DNA from: Geoalkalibacter halelectricus
Lineage (GTDB): Bacteria > Desulfobacterota > Desulfuromonadia > Desulfuromonadales > Geoalkalibacteraceae
Reading direction: 5' to 3'
NCBI RefSeq assembly: GCF_025263685.1
Contig: NZ_CP092109.1
Span: forward strand, 3,101,001-3,165,000
Length of the DNA: 64,000 bases
Shown: positions 12,065-31,743 of the stretch, piece after piece
How the letters are laid out: every line of letters begins with the position of its first letter
How positions within the stretch are numbered: position 1 is the first letter of the stretch
Position numbers and translations under genes: made by a program
The notes under the pieces: model-generated
Seen by the model: the letters and a program-made list of their open reading frames with translations, nothing else
Database searches by the model: none
What the model was told of the DNA's origin: nothing

Positions 12065-12089
12065 TCTCGCTTTTTATCGGACCTTAACA

Positions 12090-12126: not shown

Positions 12127-12143
12127 GTTGATGGTGCGGTTGC

Positions 12144-13589: not shown

Positions 13590-13664
13590 AATCCTGAGGG
13601 TTCTCCTTCACACGTAAGTTCGCCTGTGGGCGACGGAACATCCTAAACGATGGGCGCCGATTTT

Positions 13665-14141: not shown

Positions 14142-14164
14142 GGCTGTTTCCTCGTTGGCTGGGG

Positions 14165-15931
14165 TTAAAAGGGCCAGAAAATCGGAATGAAAATCACCGC
14201 CAGAACCCAGAAGATCAGGTTCAGGGGGGCGCCGACCTTGACGTAGTCGGTGTATTTGTAGCCGCCGAGGCCGTAGACCATGGCGTTGGTCTGATAGCCC
14301 ACCGGCGTAATGAAACTGGTCGACGCGGCAAAGGTGACCGCCATGAGCAGCGGCTTGGCGTCGATGCCCAGGCTTATCGCCGTGGCGATGGCGATGGGCG
14401 CCATCAGGACCGCCGAGGCATTGTTGCTCATGGATTCGGTCAACAGGGCGGTGAGCAGGTAGAAGATGGCCAAGGCCCCGATCGGTCCCAGCCCGCCCAC
14501 CAGGCCCAGGGCGTTTTCGGCCAGCCATTGGGCGGTGCCGGTTTTCTCCATGGCGATGCCCAGGGGCAGGATGCCGCCAAGGAGAAAGATGACGGTCCAA
14601 TCGACGGATTGTTGCGCCTCCTCCAAGGTCAGGCAGCGGGTCAGAACCATGGCGATGCAGCCGAGAATGGCGCTGACCAGAATCGGCATGACATTAAAGG
14701 CCGCCAGGCCCACCACCAGGGCGACGATGCCGATGGCGAAGGGAACGCGGTGGCTGCGCAGGGAAGGCTCGGGGACTTCGGCAAACACGATGAAATCGTC
14801 GTCAGCGCGCAACTGATCGATGTCTTTCTGCGCCGCCATGATCAGCAGCGCGTCGCCGACTTGCAGGCGCACGCTGTTGAGCTTTTCGCGCAGGGGCGCG
14901 CCGCGTCTTTGGATGGCCAGCACCAGGGCGTTGTAGCGATGGCGAAAGTAGGTGTCCTTGAGGGTGCGTCCGATCAGGCGCGAATGGGGGGGCACCAGGA
15001 CCTGCACCAGCTTCATTTCCTCATCCTGCAGGGCCTTGTCGGCCAACTCGAATTCGGCGTTGAGTTCCAGATGTGCACTTTTTTTCAGCTCCATCAGTTC
15101 CTGCAATTTGCCGCGCACCAGCAAGACGCTACCCTCGCGCATGCGTTGGCGGTAAGGCGCCCAGACGCGCCGGTCCTCGTCGAGCAGGCGCAGGATGGTC
15201 ACGTCGTGCTCGGTGCCCAGATTGCTTTCCATGGCCGTTTTGCCGATGAGCGAGGAGCCCTCCATCACGCGCATCTCGGCGATGTATTCACCCAATTCAT
15301 AGGCTGCCGTGAGTTCCTGGGATTGGCGCTCGGGCAGCAGCCAGCGCCCGACCAGGAGAAAATAGGCGAAACCCGTGGCGAACATGATCAGGCCCAGCCG
15401 GCTGAATTCGAACATGGAGAAGGCGCCGAAGCCGGCCTGTTCCGAAATCGCTGAAACCAGGAGGTTGGTGGAGGTGCCGATGAGGGTGCAAACCCCGCCG
15501 AACTGCGAGGCGTAGGAGAGCGGGATGAGAAATTTCGACGCAGCGATCTTGCGCTTGGCCGCCAGGGCCATGACGATGGGCAAAAATACCGCCACCGCCG
15601 CGGTGTTGTTGATGAAGGCCGACATGATGCCGACGCCGGTCATGATGACGATCAGGGCGGTGAAGTGGTTTTTCCCGAAACGGGTCAGAAGAAAGCCGAT
15701 GGTACCGACTGCCCCGGTTTTTTGCAGGCCGGCGCTGAGGATGAACATGGCGGCCACGGTCACCGTGGCGGGATTGCTGAAGCCGGAAATGCCCTCTTCC
15801 GGCGTGATCAGGCCCAGGGCCAGCAGGGTGCCGAGAACCATGAAGGCAACCAGGTCGACCGGAAATTTTTCGCTGACGAAGAGGGCGACGGCGCCCACCA
15901 GAACCGTGAGCACCAAGACAATTTCAAGCAT
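14165..15931 (-). CDS. SLC13/DASS-family anion permease with two TrkA-C domains
   Basis: The 588-residue membrane protein has SLC13-type halves: N-terminal segments with INNTAAVAVFLPIV near residue 110, and C-terminal segments with SMSNNASAVLMAPIA near 515 and STSFITPVGYQTNAMVYG. Between them, residues about 210-380 hold two RCK_C/TrkA-C regulatory domains. The family moves dicarboxylates, sulfate or related anions with Na+; the substrate is not readable from sequence alone. Confidence 0.88.
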   Translation of the reverse strand: MLEIVLVLTVLVGAVALFVSEKFPVDLVAFMVLGTLLALGLITPEEGISGFSNPATVTVAAMFILSAGLQKTGAVGTIGFLLTRFGKNHFTALIVIMTGVGIMSAFINNTAAVAVFLPIVMALAAKRKIAASKFLIPLSYASQFGGVCTLIGTSTNLLVSAISEQAGFGAFSMFEFSRLGLIMFATGFAYFLLVGRWLLPERQSQELTAAYELGEYIAEMRVMEGSSLIGKTAMESNLGTEHDVTILRLLDEDRRVWAPYRQRMREGSVLLVRGKLQELMELKKSAHLELNAEFELADKALQDEEMKLVQVLVPPHSRLIGRTLKDTYFRHRYNALVLAIQRRGAPLREKLNSVRLQVGDALLIMAAQKDIDQLRADDDFIVFAEVPEPSLRSHRVPFAIGIVALVVGLAAFNVMPILVSAILGCIAMVLTRCLTLEEAQQSVDWTVIFLLGGILPLGIAMEKTGTAQWLAENALGLVGGLGPIGALAIFYLLTALLTESMSNNASAVLMAPIAIATAISLGIDAKPLLMAVTFAASTSFITPVGYQTNAMVYGLGGYKYTDYVKVGAPLNLIFWVLAVIFIPIFWPF

Positions 15932-16620: not shown

Positions 16621-17172
16621 CTAGTTGATGGCGATGGAGACAAAACCTCGCTGTCCATAACCCATGGCGGACAAAAAGGTGTTGCCGACGCTGTGGATGC
16701 CGCTCAGGAGCTGTTGCGGCTCCAGGGGTACCCGGCGCATGGCGATGTAGCAGGATTCCATGCGCACCCCGGGAAGCTCCAGCAGTGCGCTCAGGCGCTT
16801 CTGCACCACGGCGGCCTCCTCGCGCTGCTCGACTCCGGCGGCGGCGAGGTCGGTCGCGAGCAGTCGCACGGCCCCGCCGCGAAAGGCGAAAATCATTTCC
16901 GGCTTGACGTTCTGGCGAACCATATCCTCATAAGTCTGGCGGATCACGCCGAGCCGCCCCGCCAGGGCGACGGGATCGGCCAAGGTGACGTCCCAGAAGA
17001 TGCGCCCGACCTCGACGTCGCGCAGGGCTTCGCGATCATCGGGAGTTGCGGCGGCGGCCGGTGTCAGGTCGAAAACCGCATCCAAGGGTTCTTCGCAGAG
17101 TTGCGCGCCGAGAACGAAGGCGGGGAGCAGCAGGATGAAGCAGGCCAGGGGGATGAGAAGCTTGAACCGCAT
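16621..17172 (-). CDS. Secreted DsrE-like protein
   Basis: The 183-residue protein starts with a Sec signal peptide (cleavage near residue 22, VLGAQ). The rest resembles periplasmic DsrE/DsrF-fold proteins: FRGGAVRLLATD, a helix, LLELPGVRMESCYIAMRR with one Cys at a position often used in that fold, and GIHSVGNTF. The fold assignment is inferred from pattern. It lies 112 bases downstream of thiE and is coupled to the Cys-rich protein. Confidence 0.6.
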   Translation of the reverse strand: MRFKLLIPLACFILLLPAFVLGAQLCEEPLDAVFDLTPAAAATPDDREALRDVEVGRIFWDVTLADPVALAGRLGVIRQTYEDMVRQNVKPEMIFAFRGGAVRLLATDLAAAGVEQREEAAVVQKRLSALLELPGVRMESCYIAMRRVPLEPQQLLSGIHSVGNTFLSAMGYGQRGFVSIAIN

Positions 17173-17284
17173 GCGAAGACCTCCTCTGGTCTTTTGGCTC
17201 CGCTATTTGTTGCCGGTAAAAAAGGCCGCCCGCGGAATCTCACGCAGGCGATGAAGCGAGCGGTGCCGGGATTAAAAAATCTCT

Positions 17285-17911
17285 TTATTGTCGCGCAAAA
17301 CGCCGCGCGGCGCAAGTCGGGTCCGCAGCGGCGAGAACGGCTCGAATCAGGGCGACGCCCTGGGCGCCCGAGGCCAGAACCTGGGGGGTTGTCGCGGCGG
17401 TGATGCCGCCGAGGGCGAAAACAGGCAGGGGCGCGTCGCGGCAGGCGTCGCGCAAGGCGTCGAGACCCTGCGGGGGGCCAAAAACGGCTTTGGATGGAGT
17501 GGGAAACACCGGGCCGAAGGTGACGAAGTCGGCCCCGGCCTGGGCGGCGGCCGCGATTTCATCGCGATGGTGGGTAGAGACGCCGATGAGCCGCTCGGGA
17601 CCGAGCAACTGTCGCGCCACGGCAATCGGCAGGGAGTGACCGCCGAGATGCACTCCGTCGGCTTCCACCGCCAGGGCCAGGTCGATGCGGTCGTTGACGA
17701 ACAGGCGCGCGCCCCAGTGCGCGGTCAACTCGCGCAGGCGGCAGGCCAGGGGATAGAGGGCACGGGCCGAAAGATCCTTTTCGCGCAGTTGCACGGCATT
17801 CACCCCGCCCTGGCAGGCGGCGCGCACCGCATCTTCGAGGCTGCGCCCGGGCGGCAGGGCGTGGCGATCGGTGATCAGATAAAGAGAAAAATCCAGGGCA
17901 CGGCCGGACAT
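17285..17911 (-). CDS. thiE: Thiamine-phosphate synthase
   Basis: This 208-residue TIM-barrel protein has VQLREKDLSARALY near residue 39, FVNDRIDLALAVEADGVHLG near 80 and FGPVFPTPSK near 145, the ThiE substrate and pyrophosphate sites. It joins HMP-pyrophosphate with thiazole phosphate to give thiamine phosphate. It is the last gene of the thi operon and begins four bases after the thiH stop codon. Confidence 0.95.
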   Translation of the reverse strand: MSGRALDFSLYLITDRHALPPGRSLEDAVRAACQGGVNAVQLREKDLSARALYPLACRLRELTAHWGARLFVNDRIDLALAVEADGVHLGGHSLPIAVARQLLGPERLIGVSTHHRDEIAAAAQAGADFVTFGPVFPTPSKAVFGPPQGLDALRDACRDAPLPVFALGGITAATTPQVLASGAQGVALIRAVLAAADPTCAARRFARQ

Positions 17912-17915
17912 GGGC

Positions 17916-19043
17916 TTACTGACCCGCGGCCCGCTCCAGAAAGGCCGCGTCCCAGTCCTTCCACACCGCCTCGTATCCGCGCGCGCGAATCAGGCGGCAG
18001 ACTTCAGCGGGGCTGCGATCGTCATCGATCGCGAACTGACGGGTGCTGTGATCCTTGTCGGCATAGCCGCCGGGGGCGGTGCATGAGCCCGCGCTCATCT
18101 GCGTGATGCCGAGCGGCAAAAGGTTGTCGCGCAACTGCGCGCTCTCCCGGGTCGAGAGGACCAGCCCCACGTCGGGCAGCAGCAGGCGCAGGGCGCAGAT
18201 CAGCTGCACGAAATGACGGTCGGAGACCGGGTGCAGGGGCTGAAAGCCGCCGTCGGCGGGACGGATGCGGGGAAAGGAGACGGTCAGTTGAGTGCGCCAG
18301 AAGTGGCGGCTCAAATACAGGGCGTGCAGGCCGGTGCAGAAGCCCTCGAAGCGAAAATCTCCCAGCCCCAGCAGCGAGCCGATCCCGATGCGTCGCAGTC
18401 CGGCGGCACCGCCGCGCTCGGGGGTGGCGAGGCGAAAGGCGAAGTCGCGCTTCTTGCCGAAGGTGTGCATGCGCTGGTAGAGCTCGGGATCGTAGGTTTC
18501 CTGGTAGATGGTCAACCCGTCGATGCCGGCGGCGACCATCTCCTGGTAGCCCGCGGTCTCCATGGGATAGACCTCGATGGCGATGGAGCTGAACAGATGG
18601 CGGATGCGGCGCGCGGCGGCGGCGAGAAAATCGTTGCCCAGGGTTTTGGGCGACTCGCCGGTGACCAGCAGGATGTGGCGAAAGCCCTGGTCGTGGAGCA
18701 CCCGCGCCTCGGTTTCGATCTCATCGAGGCTCAGGGTGCGGCGCGGCACCTGATTGTTGGCGCTAAAGCCGCAGTACAGGCAGCCGTTGACGCATTCGTT
18801 GGAAAGGTAGAGCGGCGCATAGAGCAGGATGTTGCGGCCGAAACGCTGCACGGTGAGGCGATGAGCCTTTTGCGCCATGGCTTCGAGAAAGGGCTCGGCG
18901 GCCGGTGAGAGCAGGGCCGGCAGATCTTCCGCGTGCAGGCGTTCGCCGGCCAGGGCGCGCTCCACATCGGCGGCGGTTTTGGCGTTGATCTGCGCCTCGA
19001 CGCGTGGGCGCTCATAGTGCTGGAGAAGGTCAAAAAAACTCAT
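17916..19043 (-). CDS. thiH: 2-iminoacetate synthase (tyrosine lyase)
   Basis: The ATG at 19043 (MSFFDLLQHY) gives a 375-residue radical-SAM enzyme, the normal ThiH length. The CVNGCLYCGFS cluster motif lies near residue 85. The C-terminal half carries the BATS-type region with SAGSCTAPGGY. It cleaves tyrosine to dehydroglycine for the thiazole ring. Use of ThiH rather than oxygen-dependent ThiO fits an anaerobic lifestyle. Confidence 0.95.
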   Translation of the reverse strand: MSFFDLLQHYERPRVEAQINAKTAADVERALAGERLHAEDLPALLSPAAEPFLEAMAQKAHRLTVQRFGRNILLYAPLYLSNECVNGCLYCGFSANNQVPRRTLSLDEIETEARVLHDQGFRHILLVTGESPKTLGNDFLAAAARRIRHLFSSIAIEVYPMETAGYQEMVAAGIDGLTIYQETYDPELYQRMHTFGKKRDFAFRLATPERGGAAGLRRIGIGSLLGLGDFRFEGFCTGLHALYLSRHFWRTQLTVSFPRIRPADGGFQPLHPVSDRHFVQLICALRLLLPDVGLVLSTRESAQLRDNLLPLGITQMSAGSCTAPGGYADKDHSTRQFAIDDDRSPAEVCRLIRARGYEAVWKDWDAAFLERAAGQ

Positions 19044-21103: not shown

Positions 21104-21126
21104 GCAGACGGTGCGATCTGCTGTGA

Positions 21127-21222
21127 CGCCGCTTCCCTACGCCGGTGTGAGCCGGATCAGGTTCCAAGGGTCTTCCGACGGCCGTCCAGCCGGCGGAACT
21201 CTCAGTTTGCACTCCCCTAGGG
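21127..21222 (-). ncRNA. TPP riboswitch (THI element)
   Basis: On the minus strand the conserved pieces occur in order: GGGGAGTGC, CTGAGAG (complement of 21199-21205), GACCCTTGGAACCTGATC, CCGG...CCGG and GTAGGGAAGC. These are the pyrimidine- and diphosphate-sensing arms of the THI box. It controls thiFSGHE. Confidence 0.95.
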
Positions 21223-21246
21223 CGTTTGTTCAATTTCAGGCTGAAA

Positions 21247-21425: not shown

Positions 21426-21749
21426 ATGATGAATGTTTCCGAGCGCTACCGCGAGTTGGTTGATGCGGTGACGAATTTTTCACGGTCCCTGCACGACGAA
21501 CCCGACAGCGAGCCGGCGCGAGCGGCGCGCCAGGTGCAGGCGGCGGCCGCGGCCCTGGGGGAGTATCGCGAACTGGTGGGGGAGATTCCCCGCATTCGCC
21601 TGGAGGCCAAGCTGACCCCGGTCCTGCTCAAGAGTCACGCTCAGCTCGACCGGGCGCGCCTGCTGCTCGAGGAAGAGGGGGCCGCCGATCTGGCCGCCGG
21701 GGTTTGGGACCTGGAGCAGAGGATCTATCGCCTGCTCAACGATCTCTAA
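21426..21749 (+). CDS. Small unassigned helical protein
   Basis: A GAGGAGG site precedes tandem ATG codons at 21426/21429; upstream codons are not needed. The 107-residue product is Ala/Leu/Glu-rich and probably all-helical (YRELVDAVTNFSRSLHDEP; LLEEEGAADLAAGVWDLEQRIY). No signal peptide, membrane segment or known motif was seen. It heads the plus-strand cluster, 77 bases before the AAA-like gene. Confidence 0.7.
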   Translation: MMNVSERYRELVDAVTNFSRSLHDEPDSEPARAARQVQAAAAALGEYRELVGEIPRIRLEAKLTPVLLKSHAQLDRARLLLEEEGAADLAAGVWDLEQRIYRLLNDL

Positions 21750-21826
21750 TTGTCCGGTGGGGCTGGCACGCAAGTTGCTGTCTTTGATCGGCTGTCGCCT
21801 CAAGGGAAAGGATAAGTGGACGCCTC

Positions 21827-22708
21827 ATGCATCGAAAATTGCGCAACATCTTCTACGAGGTACGTGACCCCGTGCTGGGCTGGGACGATATCGGCGGTTA
21901 CGCCGACGTCAAGGAAACCCTGCGCGAGATGGTGTGCCTGCCGCTCAAAAAGCCCGAACTGATTCGCCGGCATAATCTCGGCTTGCCCAGCGGGGTGATG
22001 CTCTGGGGACCCCTGGGCACCGGCATCACCATGCTCGCCGAGGCCTGCGCCAAGGATGCGGGCGTGTCCTTCGTCTATATCTCCGGGCAGGAAATGCTCG
22101 GCAAGGGCGAGGAGTTGGTGGAGGCCTTCGACTGCGCCATCCACGAGGCGCCCTGCGTGCTGTTCATCTCGGATTGCGAATGGCTGGCGCCGCGCGCCGG
22201 CTGCGATTACGAATGGGGGCCGGGGAATTTTCGCGCCATCCCGCCGACCTTCGCCGACAAGGAACTCACCCGGCTGTTCATCGAGCAGATCGATCGCATC
22301 AATGCCGTCGAGGGCGTGATGCTGCTGGGCTCCTGCTATCGCATCGATACCGTGGATCAGGCCGTCATCAAGGAGAAAAAACGCTTCAACCGCAAGGTCT
22401 TCGTGCACCCTCCCAACGCCCAGGATCGCCTCGGCATGCTCGAGATCTACCTCAGGGCCATGCCCAACCTGGCCGCCGATATCGATCCGCGTTCCCTCGC
22501 CGAAGCCGCGGAAGGCTATGTGGGGTGGGACATCGAAAGTCTGTGCAAGCGTGCCACGGTCAATGCCATCAAGGAGGACGCGACGACGGTGACGCGTGCT
22601 CATTTCGAGAAGGCCCTCAAGGAAATCCGCCAGTTCCTCACCCCCGACATGACGGCCAAGTACTTTCAGATCCGGGAAATGGACTGCCCGCACCATTACG
22701 AATTCTAG
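21827..22708 (+). CDS. AAA+ protein with degenerate ATPase motifs
   Basis: The 293-residue protein aligns with a CDC48/FtsH-type AAA module: WDDIGGYADVKETLREMV at residues 19-36, then the P-loop region. The P-loop reads GPLGTGIT (61-68), with Ile67 where the nucleotide-binding Lys should be. The Walker B region reads VLFISDCEW instead of VLFFDE. The sensor-1 region is GSCYRID, not GATNRPD, and the expected RPGR finger is replaced by KEKKRFN. The helical lid is retained (GYVGWDIESLCKRA). I infer a pseudo-ATPase scaffold or chaperone. It is followed 11 bases later by an FmdE-like gene. Confidence 0.8.
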   Translation: MHRKLRNIFYEVRDPVLGWDDIGGYADVKETLREMVCLPLKKPELIRRHNLGLPSGVMLWGPLGTGITMLAEACAKDAGVSFVYISGQEMLGKGEELVEAFDCAIHEAPCVLFISDCEWLAPRAGCDYEWGPGNFRAIPPTFADKELTRLFIEQIDRINAVEGVMLLGSCYRIDTVDQAVIKEKKRFNRKVFVHPPNAQDRLGMLEIYLRAMPNLAADIDPRSLAEAAEGYVGWDIESLCKRATVNAIKEDATTVTRAHFEKALKEIRQFLTPDMTAKYFQIREMDCPHHYEF

Positions 22709-22719
22709 GCTGGGTCCGC

Positions 22720-23223
22720 ATGTCGGTACTTGCACCCGCCCAACTCTTCGATGCCATTCGCCGGCAGCACGGCCATTACTGCCCCATGAGCACCCTGGGG
22801 GGACGCATGGGGTTTGCCGCGCGCCGGCATCTGGGCGCCGCACCCCTGCGCGCAATTTGTCTGGTGCGTAGTTGCGCCGTGGATGGAATTGCCGTGGCGA
22901 CCGGCTGCCGGGAGGGGGATGGCAGCCTCAGGGTCAGTGAGCAGGGCCGTCATGCACTGCTGGTCGGTCCCGTCACGGGCGGGCCGGCGCTGTGCGTGGC
23001 CCTGAGCGCGGCCGCCGTTGATCTGGCCTGGCAATACCGCCGCCTGGACGAAGCTCTTGAGCGCGAGCGGCCCCGCCTCGCCGCCCCGGAATTGGAGCAG
23101 CGACTGGCGCAAAAGGCGCGCTTTCTCGACGAACTGCTGGTGCGGCTGCGCACCCTGCCGGAGGCCGAACTGCTCGAAATATATCCCATCGACGACACCT
23201 GCCTGAGAGAGAGCCATGCCTGA
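22720..23223 (+). CDS. FmdE-like protein
   Basis: The 167-residue protein has the FmdE signature at its start (HGHYCPMSTLGGRMG, residues 15-29) and VDGIAVATGCREGDGSLRV near residue 55. These are Cys/His positions that bind metal in this family. FmdE was named from formylmethanofuran dehydrogenase operons, but most members occur elsewhere with unknown roles. The C-terminal zinc-ribbon of longer members is missing; the C-terminus is helical. It overlaps the permease gene by eight bases. Confidence 0.85.
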   Translation: MSVLAPAQLFDAIRRQHGHYCPMSTLGGRMGFAARRHLGAAPLRAICLVRSCAVDGIAVATGCREGDGSLRVSEQGRHALLVGPVTGGPALCVALSAAAVDLAWQYRRLDEALERERPRLAAPELEQRLAQKARFLDELLVRLRTLPEAELLEIYPIDDTCLRESHA

Positions 23224-24172
23224 GACGGTCCTGCAGCAGATGTGGCTGGTCATCTACGACGAAGTCACCCGCATGTGGTGGTTCTTCCTCCTGGCGTGCC
23301 TGCTGGTGGGAATCATCAAGGGCTACAAGCTCGATCTGCACATCCGCAACCTGGTCAATCGGGCCGGCGCCTGGGGCATTTTCCTCGCGGTGCTGGTCGG
23401 CATGGTCTCGCCCCTGTGCGCCTGCGGCATCTTGCCCATCGCCATTTCCCTGGCCATGATGGGCACGCCGTTGCCACCCCTGCTCGCGTTGCTTGCCACC
23501 TCGCCGACCATGGGCCCCGATGCCCTGCTGCTGACCTACCGTGGATTGGGGCCGGAATGGGCGGTGCTCAAAGTCGTCGGCTCGGGCTTTCTCGGCCTCG
23601 CCGCCGGGTTCGTCGCCCAGGCCCTGGTGCGCCAGGGCTATCTGGCCGGCGACCTGCTCAAGCTCAAACCCGTCTACCGCGAGGACGGCACCCTGGCCCC
23701 CGCGGCCGAAATCGGGCGCGCCCACGGCATCGCCGTCAAAAGCATGAGCATCACCCCGCGCCACAGCCGCTTGCGGTTCATCCTCGACCGCACCCTGGAT
23801 GCCGCCTTGTTTACCGGCAAATACCTGCTGCTGGCGATTCTACTCAAGGCGCTTATCGTGGCGCTGGTTCCCATCTCCTGGATTCTGGTGCTGGTCGGAC
23901 AGCCCAACTTTCTCTCCCTGATCAACGCCGCGCTCATCGGGCTGCCCCTGCCCACCAACCAGATTCCCATCATCCCCATCCTCGCCGGGCTGCTCGATCG
24001 CGGCATCGACCAGGGCGCCGCCCTGACCCTGTTCATGGCCGGACCGGTCACCAGCTTGCCCGCCCTGATCGCCCTCTGGGGCATGTTTCATGGGCGCGTC
24101 GTGGCGGTTTTCCTCGCCCTGGGCCTGGGCGGCTCGGTGTTTCTGGGGATGCTTTACCAGGTGTTTTTCTGA
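23216..24172 (+). CDS. ArsP/DUF318-like permease
   Basis: The 318-residue protein has about eight membrane segments in two halves separated by a soluble loop (residues about 150-190). The first half carries SPLCACGILPIAIS, equivalent to the Cys-containing signature of the ArsP/DUF318 permease family, and the second half GLPLPTNQIPIIPILAGLL. ArsP exports organoarsenicals, but many relatives are uncharacterised. The eight-base overlap with the FmdE gene suggests a common task, perhaps moving a thiol-reactive metal or small compound. Confidence 0.78.
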   Translation: MPETVLQQMWLVIYDEVTRMWWFFLLACLLVGIIKGYKLDLHIRNLVNRAGAWGIFLAVLVGMVSPLCACGILPIAISLAMMGTPLPPLLALLATSPTMGPDALLLTYRGLGPEWAVLKVVGSGFLGLAAGFVAQALVRQGYLAGDLLKLKPVYREDGTLAPAAEIGRAHGIAVKSMSITPRHSRLRFILDRTLDAALFTGKYLLLAILLKALIVALVPISWILVLVGQPNFLSLINAALIGLPLPTNQIPIIPILAGLLDRGIDQGAALTLFMAGPVTSLPALIALWGMFHGRVVAVFLALGLGGSVFLGMLYQVFF

Positions 24173-24236
24173 TGGAGTTTCGTCGCTTTATTCGGGGCGC
24201 GTGACGATTTTTTGCCTTTTGCGCGTGGAGATGTGC

Positions 24237-25277
24237 ATGCGAAACCCGATTTTCATTCTGTGCCTCACCTTGCTGCTCTGGTGCGGATCGTCCGCGGCGG
24301 CCGAGGTGCTGGTGTCCGGCAAGGTGGCCGGGCCGAGCCGTGAGGGCGAAGCCGGCATCCGGGTCGGCGCCTGGCCCGTCGACAGTCTGTCCCTGGAAGG
24401 AGAGCCGCCGCATCTCTCCGCGCCGACAGGCGTCGACGGCGAGTTTGAGCTGAGCTTGCCCGCGCCGGGAGATTATTTCCTGATCGCGCGCGGCGGCGGC
24501 TGGTTCTGTTTTTACGGACGCAACCCGGTGCGTGTGCCCCCGGAAGGTCTGCACGGCGTCAACCTGGGCCTGGTGCCCGAAACCACGGCGGCGTTCACGG
24601 CGCAGGTGGATCTGGACGAGGGCGTCATCGGGCAGGTGCTCGCCGACGGCACGCCCGTCGCCGATGCCCTGGTCTATGTCTACCTCGATCCCAACAGCCG
24701 CTTCAAAGGCATGGGCTACGCCATTCTCGGGCCCACGGACGCGGACGGGTTGTTCGCCATGGAACTGCCGCCCGGGCGCTATTACTTTCTGGTGCGCAAA
24801 CGCCGGCAGGCCGCGGCGGTCGGTCCCCTGCAGGCCGGCGACCATTTCGGCTACTGGCACGGCAATCCCCTCCAGATCCAGCCGGGCGAGGTCCAGCGCC
24901 TCGCCGTCTCCCTGCAGGAACTGCCGCAGCGCGTCGAGGATTTGCAGAGCAGCCTGTTCGGGCGCAACAGCATCGCCGGGCAGGTGCGCGACCGCGAGGG
25001 GCAGCCGGTGGCGGGCATGCGCGTGCTGCTCTACGACGATCCGCAGATGCTCAACCGTCCGCTGTTCGTCTCCCGGCCCACCGACGCCGAGGGCCGCTAC
25101 CAGCTATCCTTTCCCGACGAGGGGCGGTTTTACGTCGGCGCCCGCAGCACCCTGGGCGGGGCGCCCGAGCCGGACGAATTCATCGGCACCTACGCCGGCA
25201 GCGCAGACGGCAGCATCCGCGTCGAGGCCGGCGAGCAACTGCAGGACATCGACATCGTGGTGGGGGAAATGTGGTGA
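24237..25277 (+). CDS. Secreted protein with carboxypeptidase-regulatory-like repeats
   Basis: ATG 24237 is six bases after GGAG, giving a 346-residue protein with a signal peptide (LLLWCGSSAAAE). Three beta-sandwich repeats follow: VSGKVAGPSREGEAGIRVGAWPVD, IGQVLADGTPVADALVYVYLDP and IAGQVRDREGQPVAGMRVLLYDDP. Each ends in a G.Y/F..LP.PG.YYF element. Such repeats are structural or binding modules in periplasmic and surface proteins. Its stop codon overlaps the next gene. Confidence 0.75.
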   Translation: MRNPIFILCLTLLLWCGSSAAAEVLVSGKVAGPSREGEAGIRVGAWPVDSLSLEGEPPHLSAPTGVDGEFELSLPAPGDYFLIARGGGWFCFYGRNPVRVPPEGLHGVNLGLVPETTAAFTAQVDLDEGVIGQVLADGTPVADALVYVYLDPNSRFKGMGYAILGPTDADGLFAMELPPGRYYFLVRKRRQAAAVGPLQAGDHFGYWHGNPLQIQPGEVQRLAVSLQELPQRVEDLQSSLFGRNSIAGQVRDREGQPVAGMRVLLYDDPQMLNRPLFVSRPTDAEGRYQLSFPDEGRFYVGARSTLGGAPEPDEFIGTYAGSADGSIRVEAGEQLQDIDIVVGEMW

Positions 25278-27118
25278 GAGGCTGGTGGATTCTGATTCTG
25301 CTTGTGGGGCTGAGCGGCTGCGCCCTGCCGCGCGCGGGCGAAGCACCAGAGCCCGAACCCCTGGTTTTGGGCAACACCCTCATCGATGAGGATACCCTGT
25401 GGTCGGGACAGGTTCTCATCGACGGCTGGGTCAAGGTCGCGCGCGGCGTGACCCTGACCATCGCACCCGGCACCGAGGTCGCCTTCGTGCGCCGCGATCT
25501 GACCCTCGACGGGCTGGGCGATGCGACCATTGATGTCGATGGGCGACTCATCGCGCGCGGCACGCGCGCCGAGCCCATCGTGTTTCGCAGCGCCGAGGCA
25601 TCGCCCCAGGCCGGCGATTGGCTGGAGATTCAGAGCAACTTCTCGCCCGAGGTGCATCTGCAATACTGCGAGATCCGCGACTCGGCGCACGGCATCCACG
25701 CCCACTTCACCCGCGGCGTGATCGAGGATTGCATCATCCGCAACAACATCGACGGCACCCGGATCGGCAACAGCCGCTTCGTCATCCGCAACAACCTGGT
25801 CGAGCACAACATCAGCAAGGGCATCAATTTCCGTGATTCACGGATCGAGGTGACGCGCAACATCTTTCGCCACAACCCGGCCGGGATTTTTCTCTTCGAG
25901 TTGGACCGCGACTCGCCCATTCATCAAAACAACTTCTACGCCAACGAATATCATTTCCGCCTGGGCGATTTCTTCACCGGGGACGTTTATCCGCGCGACA
26001 ACTGGTGGGGGAGCGCCGACCCTGGCGTCATTGCCGCGCGCATCTACGACAGCCGCATCGATGATGAGGTCGGCACTGTAACGCCGGCCCCCGCGCCTAG
26101 CCGGCGTGCGGGGAGCGGGCCGCGCGACGCCCTGGACCTCGTACAGGTAGCTGGCTATTCCACCGCGGGTTTTGTCGACGCCCCGCCCCTGGTCGCGGGA
26201 GATCGACTGCTGGTGGCCTCCTGGGACGGCACCCTGAGTGCCTTGGATGCTCAGGGCCGCCCGGTTTGGCGGCGTCAACTGGGCGAGGTGCTCGACGCGC
26301 CCCTGGCCGTGGACGGCGAGCGGATTTACGGCCAAAGCTGGAAGCCCGAGGTGTTCGCCCTGCGGTTGCGCGACGGGCGGCCCCTGTGGCGTTTCGCTTA
26401 TGCGCCCTCGCCCGCCGACGACCACCGCCAGGGCGGGGTGGTGCTGCTGGATGATCTGGTGCTGGTGCCGGCCTGGAATGGCACGCTCCATGCTTTGGAT
26501 AAACTCACCGGCACGCCGCGCTGGTCCTTTGACAGCGGCGCGGCCTTGCGCGCCGCCCCGGCGCTGGATGAGGAGCGCATCTATCTCGCCGATACGGGAG
26601 GAAAGCTCAGCGCTCTCGACCTTCAAGGGCAGCTGCTCTGGCAATGGGCAGGCGACGAATCCCTACTTGCCGTGCCACAGCTGATCCCTCAAGGGGTGGT
26701 GGTGCTGGGGCGTGGTGGCACCCTGCGGGCCTTTTCGCGCGACGGAGAGATCCTCTGGCAGCAGGAGCTGAATGAAACCTGTTTCTACGCCGCGCCGGTG
26801 CCTGTGGACACAACCCTGGTGGTGGCGACCGCCGGGAGCGGACTGTGGCGCTTGTCCGCCGCCACCGGGGAGGTCATCTGGCGCGCGCAACTGAGCGGCC
26901 CCTCTTACGCGACGCCGTTGGTTCATCGGGGGCGGATTTTTGTCGGCGACAACGACGGAACCCTGGAAATCTTCGGTCTCGACAGCGGTGATTCCCTGGC
27001 GCAAACAGCAGTTTCGGGGGCTATCCAGGGCGCGCCCGCAATCTTTCAGGATCACCTGGTGTTCGGGGCCCGTGACGGCGCCCTGCACAGACTGCGGATC
27101 GAGGATCGTATGCCGTAA
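25271..27118 (+). CDS. Lipoprotein with a right-handed beta-helix and PQQ-like propeller
   Basis: The GTG start at 25271 overlaps the previous gene's stop. The 615-residue protein has lipobox LSGC (Cys17). Residues about 40-260 are a parallel beta-helix with short coils such as IEDCIIRNNIDGTRIG, FVIRNNLVEHN and NWWGSADPG, the NosD-like ending. Residues about 290-610 are about seven PQQ/BamB-type blades (LSALDAQGRPVWRRQLGE; LHALDKLTGTPRWSFDS). The combination of both folds in one lipoprotein is unusual. Role unknown; protein or metal binding at the envelope is inferred. Confidence 0.82.
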   Translation: MVRGWWILILLVGLSGCALPRAGEAPEPEPLVLGNTLIDEDTLWSGQVLIDGWVKVARGVTLTIAPGTEVAFVRRDLTLDGLGDATIDVDGRLIARGTRAEPIVFRSAEASPQAGDWLEIQSNFSPEVHLQYCEIRDSAHGIHAHFTRGVIEDCIIRNNIDGTRIGNSRFVIRNNLVEHNISKGINFRDSRIEVTRNIFRHNPAGIFLFELDRDSPIHQNNFYANEYHFRLGDFFTGDVYPRDNWWGSADPGVIAARIYDSRIDDEVGTVTPAPAPSRRAGSGPRDALDLVQVAGYSTAGFVDAPPLVAGDRLLVASWDGTLSALDAQGRPVWRRQLGEVLDAPLAVDGERIYGQSWKPEVFALRLRDGRPLWRFAYAPSPADDHRQGGVVLLDDLVLVPAWNGTLHALDKLTGTPRWSFDSGAALRAAPALDEERIYLADTGGKLSALDLQGQLLWQWAGDESLLAVPQLIPQGVVVLGRGGTLRAFSRDGEILWQQELNETCFYAAPVPVDTTLVVATAGSGLWRLSAATGEVIWRAQLSGPSYATPLVHRGRIFVGDNDGTLEIFGLDSGDSLAQTAVSGAIQGAPAIFQDHLVFGARDGALHRLRIEDRMP

Positions 27119-27124
27119 AGAAAA

Positions 27125-27193
27125 AACCCTTGTATCCATCCACCCAGGGGTGGGGTCGCAGCCCCGTGCTTGAACCCTGCTGAACAGTTACAC
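27125..27193 (-). repeat. GTTCAGC-type dispersed repeat, copy 3
   Basis: On the minus strand it starts GTAACTGTTCAGCAGGG, contains GGGGCTGCGACCCCA and ends GGATGGATACAAGGG. The same pieces in a different spacing occur at 31769-31915. It fills the gap between the two beta-helix genes. Confidence 0.55.
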
Positions 27194-27215
27194 AACCTTT
27201 AGGGTTGCCGTACAC

Positions 27216-28574
27216 ATGCATCGTCCTCAGTTTCACATCGCCCTGATTTGCTGCGCGTTGCTCTGGTCCCTGACGGCCCGACCGGCGTCGGCCATGGAGG
27301 TCGCGGGAGAGCTGTCCGGCCACACGCGCTGGTCCGGTGAGGTGTTGCTCACCCAGGAAGTGATGGTGCCCGCGGGCGCGCGTTTGGAGATCGCCCCGGG
27401 AACCCGGGTGCGTGCGGCGACGGCGGCAAGCGTTCTGCGGATCAACGGCGCTTTGGAGGTCGCCGGTCAAGCCGAGGCACCGGTTGAGTTTCTCACCCCG
27501 CACGGCTGGCAGGGCATTGTGTTCGAGCGCCCCGACCAGCCGGCGCGAATTCGTTATGCACGTTTTTCGGGCGCCGCCACGGCGCTGACCGCCTCAGGCG
27601 CCGAGGTGCAGCTCGAACAGGTGACCTTCAGGGAGTGCCGGACCGCGGTCAAGGGGTTGCGAGAAGCCCATCTGCGGGTGCGCGACAGCCGCTTTGAAAA
27701 CAACCAGATCGGCGTCGATGCGGAGCTCAAATCCCGCCTGACCTTGCAGGGCTGCCTCTTCGAGGGCCAGGCGCAGGCCGGCGCGCGGGTCGCCACCGGC
27801 AGTCATCTCAAGCTGTCCGACTGCCGCTTTGTGGGCAACGGCGCGGGCCTGGTTCTCCAGCAGAAGATCACCGGGGCGATCACCGCCAGCCGTTTTCTCG
27901 ACAACGACCGCGGCCTGGTCGGCACCCGCACCGGCGCCGGTCTTGAGGTCCGGGGCAATCTTTTCGAGAACAACCGCATCGCCTTGGAGAGCGAAACCTT
28001 CTCACAGTTCGCCCTGAGCGACAATCGCTTCGTGCGCAACCAAACGGCGGTGAAAAGCGACCAGTTCGCCACCGGAGAATTTCTGCACAACCTCTTCGAG
28101 GGCAACCGCATCGCCCTGAAGAACACCCGCCGCGCCGACCCGCGCGTGGCGCGCAATGTGTTTCACGGCAACGAGGTGGCGGTCTACTGCGATTTTTCCA
28201 GCTACCCGCGCCTGCACGACAACAACTTTGTGGAAAACCCCCTGGCGGTCAAGCTCGGACCCTTTCAAAGTGCCGCCGGGGCCCGCCTGCCGGGCGCCCA
28301 GCGCCAAGAGGGTATGATAGGGCCCGGCCCAGGAGCGGCGTTGGAGTTCCAGGCGGATTCGATCCAGGACTTCATTGATGCCTCGGCCAACTGGTGGGGG
28401 ATGGATACCCCGCAATTGGCCGCCGCGGGAGCCGAGGGCAATCCCTCGATCTTTTTTGACCGCAGGGATCAGGCTGAGGTAGAGTTGACGGACGGCGCCG
28501 GAGGCGGGCTTCTCGATCAGGTGCGCTTCAGCCCCTGGCTGAACGCCCCGGTGGCCGACGCCGGTCCGCGCTGA
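27216..28574 (+). CDS. Secreted right-handed beta-helix protein (NosD-like fold)
   Basis: The 452-residue protein has a signal peptide (cleavage near ASAME, residue 26) and then about 15 beta-helix coils with recurring N-N-I/F turns (RFENNQIGVD, NLFENNRIALES, NVFHGNEVAVY). It ends with an NWWGMD element like the preceding lipoprotein. NosD, the best-known bacterial member, helps copper-site assembly of N2O reductase, but no nosZ, nosF or nosY is nearby. It is probably a partner of the upstream beta-helix lipoprotein. Confidence 0.8.
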   Translation: MHRPQFHIALICCALLWSLTARPASAMEVAGELSGHTRWSGEVLLTQEVMVPAGARLEIAPGTRVRAATAASVLRINGALEVAGQAEAPVEFLTPHGWQGIVFERPDQPARIRYARFSGAATALTASGAEVQLEQVTFRECRTAVKGLREAHLRVRDSRFENNQIGVDAELKSRLTLQGCLFEGQAQAGARVATGSHLKLSDCRFVGNGAGLVLQQKITGAITASRFLDNDRGLVGTRTGAGLEVRGNLFENNRIALESETFSQFALSDNRFVRNQTAVKSDQFATGEFLHNLFEGNRIALKNTRRADPRVARNVFHGNEVAVYCDFSSYPRLHDNNFVENPLAVKLGPFQSAAGARLPGAQRQEGMIGPGPGAALEFQADSIQDFIDASANWWGMDTPQLAAAGAEGNPSIFFDRRDQAEVELTDGAGGGLLDQVRFSPWLNAPVADAGPR

Positions 28575-28661
28575 CCCGCAAATTGCCGGCAGTTTCTCGG
28601 CGCCGGCAGGGCGAGGGCAGGGCAAGAGGCAAGGATAACAACGTTTAAGGGAGTGGATGAG

Positions 28662-29267
28662 ATGAAAATCAAGACGGGACGCTTGCTGGTGGCGGCGGTA
28701 CTGGTTCTGCTGCTGGGCGGCTTGGCGGGCCAGGCCGCGGCCTGCGTGGGCAAAACCCTGACCCTGGGCACCACCGCCGATCCGCAGCAGACGCTGCTGG
28801 CCGAGATCGTCGCCTTGCTGATCAGCGAGCGCACCGGCACGGCGGTGAACATCGAGCAGTTCGACTCGGCGGCGGCGGTTCACGACGCGCAGCTGCGCGC
28901 CAACGTGGATATCGTCATCGGCTATACGGCCCTGGGGCACTTGGATATTTTGGGCGCCGAGCCCCTCAGTGACCCCCAGGATCTTTATCAGACCGTCAAG
29001 GCCCGCTTCAGCCAGGACATGAACCTGATCTGGCTTGAGCCCTTCGGGTTCGACCGCCAGGCACAAACCGCCGCCTTGGTCTCCGACCAGGCCGCACCCG
29101 TGGTGCGTCGCGACACCCTGCGCCGCTTTCCCGCCCTGGCACGTCTGATCGGGCGGCTTGGCGGCACCATCGACGAGGCCACCCTGGCCGCCTTGGAGGA
29201 GCAATCCCAAAGCCAACCCGCGCGCGATGTGGCGCGCGGCTTCTTGCGCGAAAACCGCTTGATCTGA
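28662..29267 (+). CDS. Orphan OpuAC-like substrate-binding protein
   Basis: ATG 28662 is eight bases after GGGAG; a GTG three codons earlier is an alternative. The 201-residue protein has a signal peptide ending ...QAAAC and resembles the glycine-betaine-type binding fold (TLTLGTT, ISERTGTAVNIEQF, VDIVIGYT, ending VARGFLRENRLI). At 201 residues it is shorter than normal OpuAC proteins, and no ABC permease or ATPase is near. It may sense or sequester a ligand for the adjacent redox proteins. Confidence 0.65.
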   Translation: MKIKTGRLLVAAVLVLLLGGLAGQAAACVGKTLTLGTTADPQQTLLAEIVALLISERTGTAVNIEQFDSAAAVHDAQLRANVDIVIGYTALGHLDILGAEPLSDPQDLYQTVKARFSQDMNLIWLEPFGFDRQAQTAALVSDQAAPVVRRDTLRRFPALARLIGRLGGTIDEATLAALEEQSQSQPARDVARGFLRENRLI

Positions 29268-29284
29268 TGCGAAGGGAGGCGGGC

Positions 29285-30208
29285 ATGGCCCAACTCGACC
29301 GACGCCGCTTCGTTCGCCAGAGCCTGCATGGGGCCCTGGCCGCCGCGACGTTGGGCACCTTGCCGGTTCTGGATCTTCTGGCCCTGCCGGCTCGTGCCGA
29401 GGACAGCCGCGTGACCCTGGCGCTGCGCGAGGGTCAGGACATCGAACGCCTGGTGGCCGACACCCTGGCAGCCCTGGGCGGAATGGAAAAATTCGTTGGC
29501 CGCGGTGAAACCGTAGTCGTCAAGCCCAACATCGGCTGGGACCGCTCTCCGGAAACGGCCGCCAACACCAATCCCCTGGTGGTGCGCGCGGTGGTCGAGC
29601 ATTGCCTGGAGGCCGGCGCGCGCAGCGTGCAGGTGTTTGACCGCAGCGCCAACGACGCGCGGCGCTGCTACGTGAACAGCGGCATCGAGGCGGCGGTCAA
29701 CGCCATCGGGTCCGACCGCGTGCGCGTCGAGCACATGGATCGCCGCGCCTACCGCGACATCGCCATCAAGAAGGGGGTGGAACTGACCAACTGGCCCTTC
29801 TACGTTCCCGCCCTGGAAGCTGATCGCTTCATCAACGTTCCCATCGCCAAGCACCATGGGCTCTCCACCGTCACCTTCGGCCTGAAGAACATCATGGGGG
29901 TGATCGGCGGCAACCGCGGGGTGCTGCATCGGCGCCTGTCCGAATCCCTTGCCGACATCAACACCGTGGTGCATTCGGATCTGACCCTCATCGACGCGGT
30001 GCGCATTCTGGTGGCCAACGGCCCTCAGGGCGGGCGCCTGGAGGATGTGCGGCGCACCGATACCCTCATCGCCTCGGCCGACATCGTCGCCGCCGACGCG
30101 GCGGCCTGCAGGCTCTTCGGCCATGCGCCCGAAGACATCGAAATGATCACTGAAGCCGCGCGTCGTGGTTTGGGCACCATGAATCCTGAAAGGATCGTGC
30201 GGGTTTGA
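29285..30208 (+). CDS. Tat-exported DUF362 protein
   Basis: I chose ATG 29285 because GGGAGG precedes it. The 307-residue protein begins DRRRFVRQSLHGAL, a twin-arginine signal, followed by a DUF362 domain (VVVKPNIGWDRSPETAANTNP near residue 75; FINVPIAKHHGLSTVTFGLKNIMG near 190). The family's function is not established; members often accompany Fe-S proteins. Tat export suggests a cofactor is inserted before transport. It overlaps the polyferredoxin gene by four bases. Confidence 0.85.
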   Translation: MAQLDRRRFVRQSLHGALAAATLGTLPVLDLLALPARAEDSRVTLALREGQDIERLVADTLAALGGMEKFVGRGETVVVKPNIGWDRSPETAANTNPLVVRAVVEHCLEAGARSVQVFDRSANDARRCYVNSGIEAAVNAIGSDRVRVEHMDRRAYRDIAIKKGVELTNWPFYVPALEADRFINVPIAKHHGLSTVTFGLKNIMGVIGGNRGVLHRRLSESLADINTVVHSDLTLIDAVRILVANGPQGGRLEDVRRTDTLIASADIVAADAAACRLFGHAPEDIEMITEAARRGLGTMNPERIVRV

Positions 30209-31743
30209 GGGTGAGTTTGAAGCATCTGCGCATCGCCGTCCAGCTCCTGTGTCTGGGCGGCTTTGTTTTGCTGTTTGTCCTGACCGAATATCGCGGCGAG
30301 GATCAACTCGCCTATCCCGTCAGCCTGCTGTTTCGCATCGACCCCCTGGCGGCCCTCGCCGCCGCACTGGCTCCCGGCGCTTTCGGCTGGAGTTTGCTGT
30401 GGCCGGCACTGGTGGTGGTGCTTCTGACTTTTATCTTGGGCCGGTTTTTCTGCGGCTGGGTCTGCCCCCTGGGAACCACCCTCGACGGCCTCGGCCGGGT
30501 GGTGGGGCGAGGGAACGGACCGGTGGCGACCGGGTGGCGCCGCAGCAAGTATTACCTGCTGATTCTGCTGACGGCCGCCGGAGTGTTTGGCTTACAGATC
30601 ATTGGCTTGTTCGATCCCCTCGCCATTTTCTTGCGCACCCTGACGCTGAGCCTCTATCCGGCCTGGAATCTGGTCGTCAACGGCATCTTCGAGCGGCTCT
30701 ACCACAATCCGGTGCCGGTGGTTTCGCCCCTGGCCGATCGGGTCTATCCCTTCTTCGATAAGTACCTGCTTTCCTTTCATCCCCCGACCTTCACCCTGGC
30801 GGTGTTCACCCTCCTGGTGTTTTTTGCCATCGTTGCCCTGGAGAAGATCGAACGCCGCTTCTGGTGCAAAAACCTCTGCCCCCTGGGTGCGTTGTTTGGA
30901 TTGTGCGCGCGTCATGCGTTGCTGCGCCGGGAACCCGCTGCGCCGTGCAGCGATTGCAGTGCCTGTCTGAACCATTGTCGCAGCGGCGCGGTGAGCGGTG
31001 CCGGACATCGCGCCGGTGAATGTCTGCTGTGCATGGACTGCGAGGGCTTCTGTCCCCAGGGGCGGGTGCGCTGGGCCTGGGGCGCGCCGCGGGCCGGGCA
31101 GGGCGTGGATCTCTCGCGGCGCGGCGTGATTACCGCCGCGGCCGCCGGCATGGTCCTGGCTCCGGTGGCCGGAGTGACCCCCGCTATGTGGCAACGCCAT
31201 TCCTTTCTGCTGCGTCCCCCCGGTTCGGTGGCCGAGGCCGAATTTCAGCGCCGCTGCATCCGCTGCGGGGAGTGCATGAAGGTGTGCATCGGCGGCGCCC
31301 TTCATCCCGCCTTGCTCGATGCCGGTCCCACGGGACTGTGGACGCCGGTTCTGGTGCCGCGCATCGGCTATTGCGAATACAACTGCACTCTGTGCGGCCA
31401 GGTTTGTCCCACCGGCGCCATTCGCCCTTTAAGTCTTGAAGAGAAGCATGAATTCGTCATCGGCATCGCCGTGTTCGACCAGAATCGCTGTATCCCCTTT
31501 GCGCGGGGCGAGGAATGCCTGGTCTGCGAGGAGCATTGCCCCACGCCCGAAAAGGCCATCGTCTTCGACGTGCGGCCGCTATTGGTGGGCGATGAGGAAC
31601 GGCTGGTCAAATTGCCGCGCGTGGTGCGCAATCGCTGCATCGGCTGCGGCATCTGCGAGACCCGCTGTCCCGTGGAGGGCATCAGTCCCATTCGCGTCAC
31701 CAACGAAGGCGAAAGCCGGCGTCCCTTTGATCCCTGGGCATAA
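30205..31743 (+). CDS. NapH-NapG-like fused membrane/periplasmic polyferredoxin
   Basis: In 512 residues, the N-terminal part has about five membrane segments with the NapH-type motifs FFCGWVCPLG (about 79-88) and WCKNLCPLG (about 217-225), then two clusters' worth of Cys (CSDCSACLNHC; CLLCMDCEGFC). At about 304 comes an internal twin-arginine stretch, SRRGVITAAAAG, followed by a NapG-like part with CIRCGECMKVC, CEYNCTLCGQVC, a CIPFARGEECLVCEEHC variant and CIGCGICETRC. NapH and NapG are normally separate and pass quinol electrons to periplasmic reductases. The TTG start overlaps DUF362. Confidence 0.85.
   Translation: MRVSLKHLRIAVQLLCLGGFVLLFVLTEYRGEDQLAYPVSLLFRIDPLAALAAALAPGAFGWSLLWPALVVVLLTFILGRFFCGWVCPLGTTLDGLGRVVGRGNGPVATGWRRSKYYLLILLTAAGVFGLQIIGLFDPLAIFLRTLTLSLYPAWNLVVNGIFERLYHNPVPVVSPLADRVYPFFDKYLLSFHPPTFTLAVFTLLVFFAIVALEKIERRFWCKNLCPLGALFGLCARHALLRREPAAPCSDCSACLNHCRSGAVSGAGHRAGECLLCMDCEGFCPQGRVRWAWGAPRAGQGVDLSRRGVITAAAAGMVLAPVAGVTPAMWQRHSFLLRPPGSVAEAEFQRRCIRCGECMKVCIGGALHPALLDAGPTGLWTPVLVPRIGYCEYNCTLCGQVCPTGAIRPLSLEEKHEFVIGIAVFDQNRCIPFARGEECLVCEEHCPTPEKAIVFDVRPLLVGDEERLVKLPRVVRNRCIGCGICETRCPVEGISPIRVTNEGESRRPFDPWA

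Follow-up and report, generated by a model that had tools for sequence, protein, structure and literature searches.

In nap clusters, the quinol dehydrogenase NapGH accompanies a periplasmic nitrate reductase, and nos clusters carry the beta-helix protein NosD. We compared these systems with a ten-gene plus-strand block of Geoalkalibacter halelectricus (contig NZ_CP092109.1), which we analyzed within a window of 64,000 nucleotides, positions 3,101,001-3,165,000 of a 4.13 Mb single-contig genome. An earlier annotation made from the letters alone (hereafter the sequence-only reading) had proposed an undescribed envelope redox system here, and we likewise found no description of it in the open-licence PubMed Central (PMC) literature. 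The block resembles nap and nos systems in its NapG/NapH arrangement, its NosD-like beta-helices, and its redox logic. However, none of the ten proteins has a NapA or NosZ domain, the NapG, NapH, and NosD family cut-offs are missed, and the permease is of the ArsP type, not an ATP-binding cassette (ABC) transporter. The sequence-only reading had concluded that no reductase is encoded here. That is probably wrong: a DUF362 protein with a twin-arginine translocation (Tat) leader is a likely enzyme, because its model has the LarA fold, it retains candidate nickel-pincer nucleotide (NPN) residues, and it is a near-constant partner of the fused polyferredoxin NapHG. The best explanation of the block as a whole, to which we assign a probability of about 0.42 from sequences and models, is a quinol-linked periplasmic oxidoreductase (DUF362) with its own accessory kit.

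NapHG has a described counterpart in the polyferredoxin (PFD) of the delta proteobacterium MLMS-1, a fused NapH-NapG protein with dual Sec/Tat insertion (PMC5449189). The two are alike in the fusion and in the plan of four Sec segments and a fifth, Tat-dependent segment after a twin-arginine motif. NapHG has five hydrophobic segments, an internal twin-arginine motif (SRRG) before the fifth, and 30 cysteines with Cys quartets, so that one chain holds a membrane part and an Fe-S part. NapG and NapH models match separate halves of it, at scores below their NCBIfam cut-offs (92.6 against 269 and 67.5 against 234, respectively). The part of PMC5449189 that describes PFD concerns membrane insertion and names no physiological partner, whereas NapHG here is tied to DUF362 and to a set of genes that we call module A. 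The ten genes, all confirmed from the open reading frame (ORF) list and translations, are as follows.

21426..21749, plus strand: hel, a small helical protein between the thiamin (thi) operon and the AAA gene; probably not in the system
21827..22708, plus strand: pseudo-AAA (P0002), a classical CDC48-like AAA domain (PF00004) with degenerate Walker motifs
22720..23223, plus strand: FmdE-family protein (P0003; PF02663) with HGHxC and C...C residues
23216..24172, plus strand: ArsP_1 permease (P0004; PF03773) with an SPLCACG motif
24237..25277, plus strand: 3rep (P0005), a secreted CarboxypepD_reg/DUF4198 beta-sandwich repeat protein, by domain search
25271..27118, plus strand: bhPQQ (P0006), a lipoprotein with an N-terminal beta-helix and a C-terminal BamB/PQQ-like propeller, by domain search
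27216..28574, plus strand: bh2 (P0007), a secreted NosD-like beta-helix protein (PF05048)
28662..29267 (alternative start 28653), plus strand: one-lobed OpuAC-type binding protein (P0008), by domain search and model
29285..30208 (ORF opens at 29267), plus strand: DUF362 (P0009; PF04015 at 167 bits), with a Tat-type twin-arginine leader and a predicted LarA N-domain fold
30205..31743, plus strand: NapHG (P0010), a fused NapH-NapG polyferredoxin with a NapH-like N-half and a NapG-like C-half

Profile searches upheld the domain calls of the sequence-only reading (AAA, FmdE, ArsP, beta-helix/PQQ, second beta-helix, Tat-DUF362, and NapH-NapG). Its three start/stop overlaps are also real: the FmdE gene stops at 23223 and the ArsP gene starts at 23216, 3rep stops at 25277 and bhPQQ opens with GTG at 25271, and DUF362 stops at 30208 and NapHG opens with TTG at 30205 (30211 is an alternative start). 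The OpuAC and DUF362 ORFs overlap in the window as well. A division into three sub-blocks did not hold, since four gaps of 64-97 bases are present (21749-21827, 24172-24237, 27118-27216, and 28574 to 28653 or 28662).

The exported DUF362 protein and LarA

The AlphaFold model of DUF362 (predicted local distance difference test score, pLDDT, 91.5; predicted template-modelling score 0.88) has the fold of the LarA N-domain, which its residues 55-287 cover. In a VIA structure search, the 12 best entries lie at Z 16.1-18.3 (root-mean-square deviation, rmsd, 2.7-3.4 over 203-215 residues), and the next row falls to Z 5.7. Eleven of these entries are named lactate/malate racemases or LarA-like, and the twelfth is an unnamed T. 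maritima protein (4nar). The best match superposes 206 residues at rmsd 2.7 (Z 18.3), and a Foldseek match to LarA-type structures has an E-value of 7e-7. DUF362 and DUF2088, the domain of the LarA racemases (PF09861), share Pfam clan CL0471 (PMC11770544).

In LarA, residues K184, R75, and H200 bind NPN and H174 is catalytic (PMC7583248, PMC11770544), and for LarAIp an adduct of 450.5 Da has been measured (PMC11851776). Aligned sequences suggest that DUF362 K207, H221, and H197 correspond to K184, H200, and H174, with DUF362-ferredoxin proteins as the bridge. All three DUF362 residues are identical in 56 of 56 aligned proteins (the window copy and the 55 that remained when 68 usable ORFs from 80 loci were thinned at 85% identity) and in 109 of 109 distinct matches covering the motif, shorter matches and identical copies having been dropped. 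The spacing is H174-x9-K184-x15-H200 in LarA (that of L. plantarum, as read from the PDB alignment) and H197-x9-K207-x13-H221 in DUF362, i.e., the exported motif (H-GLSTVTFGL-K-NIMGVIGGNRGVL-H) has a second gap two residues shorter. A DUF362-ferredoxin protein of the same order (L274; loci, genomes, and families of relatives are cited by L, G, and f numbers) reads H-ELTGFGGAL-K-NLGMGCSSREGKLEQ-H, with spacing identical to that of LarA. Six such proteins, which were chosen for a prior Lar_N match, align to Lar_N positions 143-196 at E-values of 4e-5 to 1.3e-4, and the Lar_N model aligns the motif stretch in all six. One LarA hits the DUF362 model in return at E 1.7e-4.

Invariant positions among the 56 sequences, which come from several phyla, include K86, N88, R93, D125, K195, H197, K207, N208, R217, H221, D230, D243, R246, and D277. 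R93 is a possible counterpart of LarA R75; it lies at about the right distance from the following proline, but the manual alignment needs an insertion of ~5 residues. No cysteine is invariant, which gives no indication of an Fe-S cluster within DUF362. LarA is a cytoplasmic racemase, whereas DUF362 has a Tat-type leader, lacks the C-domain, has Asp at the H108 position in the manual alignment, and is paired with a quinol-type polyferredoxin. We found neither an NPN function nor any other described function for DUF362 in the open-licence PMC literature. A search of the PDB with the DUF362 profile (hmmsearch) had three chains of GDP-L-fucose synthase (E 0.6) as its sole matches, which we took as chance.

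Two side observations concern NPN users more widely. The DUF362-ferredoxin proteins L274-L279 carry ferredoxin-type clusters, have no visible leader, and keep the exact LarA His-x9-Lys-x15-His spacing; they may form a family of NPN plus Fe-S enzymes. Several genomes (in families f17 and f19, and G072) have LarC without a strong Lar_N match, which suggests NPN users other than LarA.

A modular cluster within and beyond the order

We searched 136 genomes of the order with one E-value cut-off per protein (1e-60 for NapHG, 1e-85 for AAA, 1e-20 for OpuAC, and 1e-30 for DUF362) and read loci up to 20 kb around the matches. Co-occurrence counts are not corrected for phylogeny, many genomes are incomplete, and the genes of relatives were called with tblastn and a codon scorer of our own making, which can overlook small genes. 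NapHG was found in 64 genomes, AAA in 47, OpuAC in 50, and DUF362 in 65. The cluster is modular, with a module A (AAA to OpuAC) and a module B (DUF362-NapHG), each of which is also found apart from the other. Of the 52 genomes that encode AAA or OpuAC, 45 encode both; the assemblies of the other seven suffer from incompleteness, fragmentation, or contamination. In G077, however, the front genes have probably been lost in fact, because bh2 adjoins hel on one contig there (L196). As for module B, DUF362 and NapHG are common to 62 genomes. Among the 80 top-ranking named loci out of at least 549 (some from the same assemblies as our genomes), 77 have DUF362 immediately before NapHG, and two of the three exceptions are contig edges. 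The pair is also present among these best 80 in loci labelled Nitrospirae, Acidobacteria, and Latescibacterota.

Both modules occupy one recurring position, flanked by the thi operon and hel on one side and a response regulator on the other, and the contents of this slot vary. The slot holds A plus B as in the window (L111, L113, L114, L137, L140, and L144), B alone (L125 and L132, the latter hel-DUF3467-DUF362-NapHG), or A alone (L181, L182, L184, L186, L187, and L195); NapHG lies elsewhere in the genome in three of the A-alone cases (G075, G123, and G082). A long form adds a spermidine-synthase-like membrane protein, extra 3rep/beta-helix pairs, and often FG-GAP (L120, L126, L130, and L194). 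Thus, A and B can occur apart, with 21 of 64 NapHG genomes lacking A and 9 of 52 module-A genomes lacking NapHG, although not in most module-A relatives. For these nine, a relaxed search gave one weak match (G095), and G023 has DUF362 at a contig end. The sequence-only reading had named independent occurrence of the sub-blocks in most relatives as what would refute it, and these counts speak against it only in part. It is partly supported: right about a coherent redox cluster, probably wrong about the lack of an enzyme, and incomplete about modularity.

Conservation of gene order, which it had suggested checking, is clear both within the order and beyond, in anaerobes that are only distantly related. 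AAA-FmdE-ArsP runs in 44 of the 52 genomes with readable DNA after AAA, and this excludes chance clustering. These 52 (36 of the order and 16 outside) come from 64 AAA genomes (47 and 17); the 12 left out comprise 5 at contig edges and 7 without fetched DNA there. The exceptions are G044, G015, and G019, in which FmdE was undetected, and loci L219 and L231-L234. The recurring core is eight genes, AAA-FmdE-ArsP-3rep-bhPQQ-OpuAC-DUF362-NapHG. The second beta-helix gene, bh2, is a variable part, absent from L137, L140, L144, L218, L222, L226, L228, and L229. We downgraded hel as a core member: it is present in the slot in L125, L128, L132, and L141, where module A is missing, and it was undetected beside the cluster outside the order. 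As a counter-case, hel adjoins AAA without the thi operon in G044 (L114/L161), whose locus L114 has neither FmdE nor thi genes. It is probably a neighbor outside the system. In most relatives a DUF3467 gene precedes OpuAC, and the window has none.

Beyond the order, a sample of 395 genomes of the phylum has AAA in 23 and NapHG in 170, the latter a count of NapHG itself whatever its pairing with DUF362. All 23 AAA genomes carry NapHG (Fisher p 1.5e-9 against 170/395, uncorrected for phylogeny), which supports a coherent envelope redox cluster with a quinol-type NapHG. A direct search outside the order found NapHG in 17 of 17 AAA genomes. In five of these 17 loci (L218, L222, L226, L228, and L229) the order is that of the window minus bh2, i.e., AAA-FmdE-ArsP-3rep-bhPQQ-OpuAC-DUF362-NapHG. 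Family f68 (L221, L224, L225, and L227) has a complete module A with FG-GAP, and NapHG on another contig, and in families f50 and f109 (L231-L234) AAA is followed by OpuAC or directly by DUF362. DUF362 follows AAA within one locus in 9 of the 17, including the non-window arrangements of L231-L234. Since the gene order recurs outside the order, the association is broader than the inherited synteny of one order; block transfer may also have contributed.

Several neighbors deserve mention in their own right. Downstream of the cluster and on its strand, 8 of the 17 outside loci (L218, L220, L221, L222, L225, L227, L228, and L229) have a PALP (cysteine-synthase-like) gene, whether DUF362-NapHG is present or absent; it was found by blastp, and the PALP domain was checked in L225. 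Locus L233 encodes a U32-family protein, a phosphonate-type binding protein, and a Sulf_transp protein, and ResB-like proteins are found in L231 and L233. Families f45 and f108 encode multihaem proteins (11-17 CxxCH motifs) upstream of the cluster, and three of the four are on the opposite strand (L228 at oriented positions 525-2033 and 5064-6566, L222 at 5029-6549, and L218 at 5281-6792). In family f18 (L115, oriented positions 8291-15900, and L198), EB_dh (ethylbenzene-dehydrogenase-type), HEAT-repeat-like, and membrane Fe-S proteins precede DUF3467-OpuAC, with DUF362-NapHG following in L115.

The mercury-methylation gene pair hgcAB lies a few genes downstream of the slot in many relatives, among them L139 (16739-18207), L140 (18202-19636), L132 (oriented 17155-18606), L181, L182, L186, and L187, and the window genome has its copy away from the slot (G000:C1:2457753; L273). 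Among the 136 genomes, 63 have hgcA, and one in-frame TGA occurs in 10 of the 63 matches; in L236 the TGA falls in the N-terminal Cys-rich stretch, consistent with a CU selenoprotein. We rejected selenocysteine in HgcA as a novelty, as a list in PMC13188914, citing Haft and Gwadz 2023, already includes HgcA as a CU selenoprotein.

In the window, the upstream flank is the minus-strand thi operon with a TPP (thiamin pyrophosphate) riboswitch (21117-21228, minus strand), and the downstream flank is a small plus-strand gene followed by a minus-strand response-regulator/GGDEF gene, its domain read by eye. Operon boundaries cannot be drawn, because a scan gave 3 promoter-like sites against a shuffle mean of 1.6 and 14 terminator-like sites against 10.6.

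The module A proteins

The pseudo-AAA lacks both the Walker A lysine and the Walker B Asp-Glu of active AAA+ ATPases. In the window copy, Walker A reads GPLGTGIT (lysine to isoleucine), Walker B reads ISDC, and the C-terminus is CPHHYEF. These features are conserved across 57 distinct rows: the Walker A position is isoleucine in 56 of the 56 rows that cover it, Walker B is Asp-Cys/Thr/Ile/Val and never Asp-Glu (57/57), the position read as sensor 1 is Cys (57/57), and CPHHYxF closes all 54 rows that reach the end. Judged by these residues, the protein would be a dead ATPase that does not hydrolyze ATP. Identity to the window copy is ≥76% within the order and 55-71% outside it, and pseudo-AAA forms a discrete family, because the phylum search returned no matches from about 4e-107 to the 1e-50 cut-off. 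Literature searches on pseudo-AAA and on DUF3467 gave nothing useful.

The FmdE protein belongs to its family (PF02663, 70.2 bits against a cut-off of 22.9), with 3d00 and 2glz as the nearest solved structures. The permease is above the ArsP_1 cut-off (PF03773, 132 bits) and below the NCBIfam equivalog cut-offs for SaoE (103.3 against 325 bits) and SO_0444 (89.3 against 300 bits); a literature search for SaoE, SaoB, and SaoC returned mostly unrelated uses of those words. 3rep, which was found again at the cluster locus of relatives, has two CarboxypepD_reg stretches and one DUF4198. bhPQQ joins a beta-helix to a PQQ_2/BamB-like propeller behind a lipobox, LSGC, read by eye. bh2 matches PF05048 at 58 bits, and both beta-helix proteins miss the NosD cut-off of 300 (TIGR04247; 45.6 bits for P0007 and 19.6 bits for P0006).

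The orphan binding protein of the sequence-only reading is of the OpuAC type, with only one lobe. Its model (pLDDT 88.3) matches ProX/OpuBC/EgtU-type chains at Z 25-27 over 162-177 residues, and the best superposition (Z 27.2, rmsd 1.4) places 172 residues across chain residues 1-275. The structural partners mostly have 265-295 residues, and some are sensor fusions of about 500. By phmmer, residues 27-168 match positions 10-151 and residues 146-202 match positions 221-279 of related chains. Hence, one lobe superposes, and the internal second lobe, of about 100 residues, is missing, which makes ordinary ligand clamping by P0008 unlikely if the model holds. No ABC transporter partner was recognized in the window cluster.

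Function, rival explanations, and meaning

The cluster is probably a conserved functional unit. Within it, the balance tips slightly toward DUF362 as the catalytic subunit, on the strength of its residues and model, and an NPN-type cofactor in DUF362 is plausible at somewhat less than even odds. We propose that DUF362 would be loaded with such a cofactor in the cytoplasm, folded, and then exported by Tat. NapHG would pass electrons between quinol and DUF362, in either direction, and DUF362 would perform a hydride-type reaction on a substrate. Tat exports folded proteins, and most of its E. coli substrates bind redox cofactors (PMC3712460), in line with NPN being loaded before export. Judging from domains and location, the pseudo-AAA might be a cytoplasmic, non-hydrolyzing assembly chaperone, FmdE a cytoplasmic metal or sulphur protein, and the ArsP permease a carrier of a small substrate or product, while the bhPQQ lipoprotein, 3rep, and the half-OpuAC could form an envelope scaffold that recruits enzyme or substrate. 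Scaffold and metal-delivery roles had been proposed before, and we too can only infer them.

Several observations weigh against a quinol-linked DUF362 oxidoreductase with an NPN cofactor. The position of the catalytic His108 of LarA is Asp125 in 56 of 56 DUF362 proteins by manual alignment, although LarA-like enzymes without one catalytic His are known (PMC12611868). DUF362 lacks the LarA C-domain (PF21113, with K298), and the window protein has no Lar_N match, P0009 matching only DUF362 up to E 1. Alignment of DUF362 against LarA by hhalign gave a probability of 3.7% with the motif unaligned; we set this profile-profile comparison aside as uninformative and relied on the intermediate DUF362-ferredoxin proteins. 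The window genome encodes LarC and a LarB-type AIRC-domain protein side by side, so NPN would be available, yet its ordinary LarA explains this without DUF362. LarC occurs in 62 of 64 NapHG genomes and 48 of 72 others, a weak association, because LarC is common anyway (110/136). Module B can do without module A, because 147 of the 170 NapHG genomes of the phylum sample lack AAA. Conversely, neither NapHG nor DUF362 was found at the cut-offs used in eight module-A genomes, of which G079 is 99% and G124 96% complete, so module A cannot serve only DUF362 everywhere.

These eight genomes leave some room for the model of the sequence-only reading, in which the whole cluster would mature and supply with electrons an envelope metalloenzyme whose gene lies elsewhere, much as NosD and NapGH or NosR do around nitrous-oxide reductase. 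DUF362 would then be a cofactor carrier or chaperone and not the enzyme. The NosD-like beta-helices, FmdE, and ArsP would suit such a kit, as would the sulphur-related neighbors outside the order, namely PALP in 8 of 17 loci and the Sulf_transp (YeeE/YedE) protein of L233. However, no reductase recurs beside the cluster in the loci read, where most unnamed ORFs were not family-scanned; the invariant residues of DUF362 are of enzyme type (K, N, R, D, and H) and include no Cys; the best NosD score is 45.6 bits against 300; and NapHG occurs in those 147 genomes without AAA. We therefore regard an enzyme encoded elsewhere as rather unlikely. The separate occurrence of the modules would also be expected if they were unrelated operons in one slot, made adjacent by synteny or joint transfer: either can be missing from a genome or from the slot, and f68 keeps a complete module A with NapHG on a different contig. 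Set against this are NapHG in every AAA genome both of the phylum sample and outside the order, DUF362 after AAA in 9 of 17 loci with differing arrangements, and the OpuAC/DUF362 and DUF362/NapHG overlaps in the window; two unrelated operons thus seem quite unlikely to us.

The hgcAB genes raise the further idea of a role in handling organometals or soft metals (mercury, arsenic, and selenium) in mercury methylators that carry hgcAB, with the permease exporting them and FmdE and the binding proteins capturing them. The SaoE and SO_0444 scores (103 and 89 bits), the presence of hgcA in 44 of 52 module-A genomes and 19 of 84 others, and the position of hgcAB a few genes downstream in many relatives speak for it. 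Yet both NCBIfam cut-offs are missed, and hgcA is missing at the 1e-40 cut-off from eight module-A genomes, including G044 (99% complete), G091 (100%), and G125 (100%). In addition, hgcAB share the slot without module A in L132 and lie elsewhere in the window genome, and shared ancestry can explain much of the association. The counts are real and broken in complete genomes; we downgraded HgcA and mercury as the function and hold the soft-metal idea to be very improbable.

A quinol-linked DUF362 oxidoreductase thus stays our preferred reading, and it may extend beyond this cluster: tentatively, exported DUF362 proteins could be NPN oxidoreductases wired to the quinone pool by NapHG, with one branch having a kit built around a dead AAA+ protein. 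To our knowledge, NPN has so far been described only for cytoplasmic racemases and epimerases. If the proposal is true, NPN chemistry would be part of anaerobic respiration, a respiratory use of the nickel-pincer cofactor, and DUF362 would represent a new kind of respiratory enzyme. DUF362 is a widespread domain of unknown function, and this large unannotated family would become testable with existing larBCE tools. A conserved dead AAA+ protein with a CPHH tail would, for its part, be an unusual cofactor or assembly chaperone.

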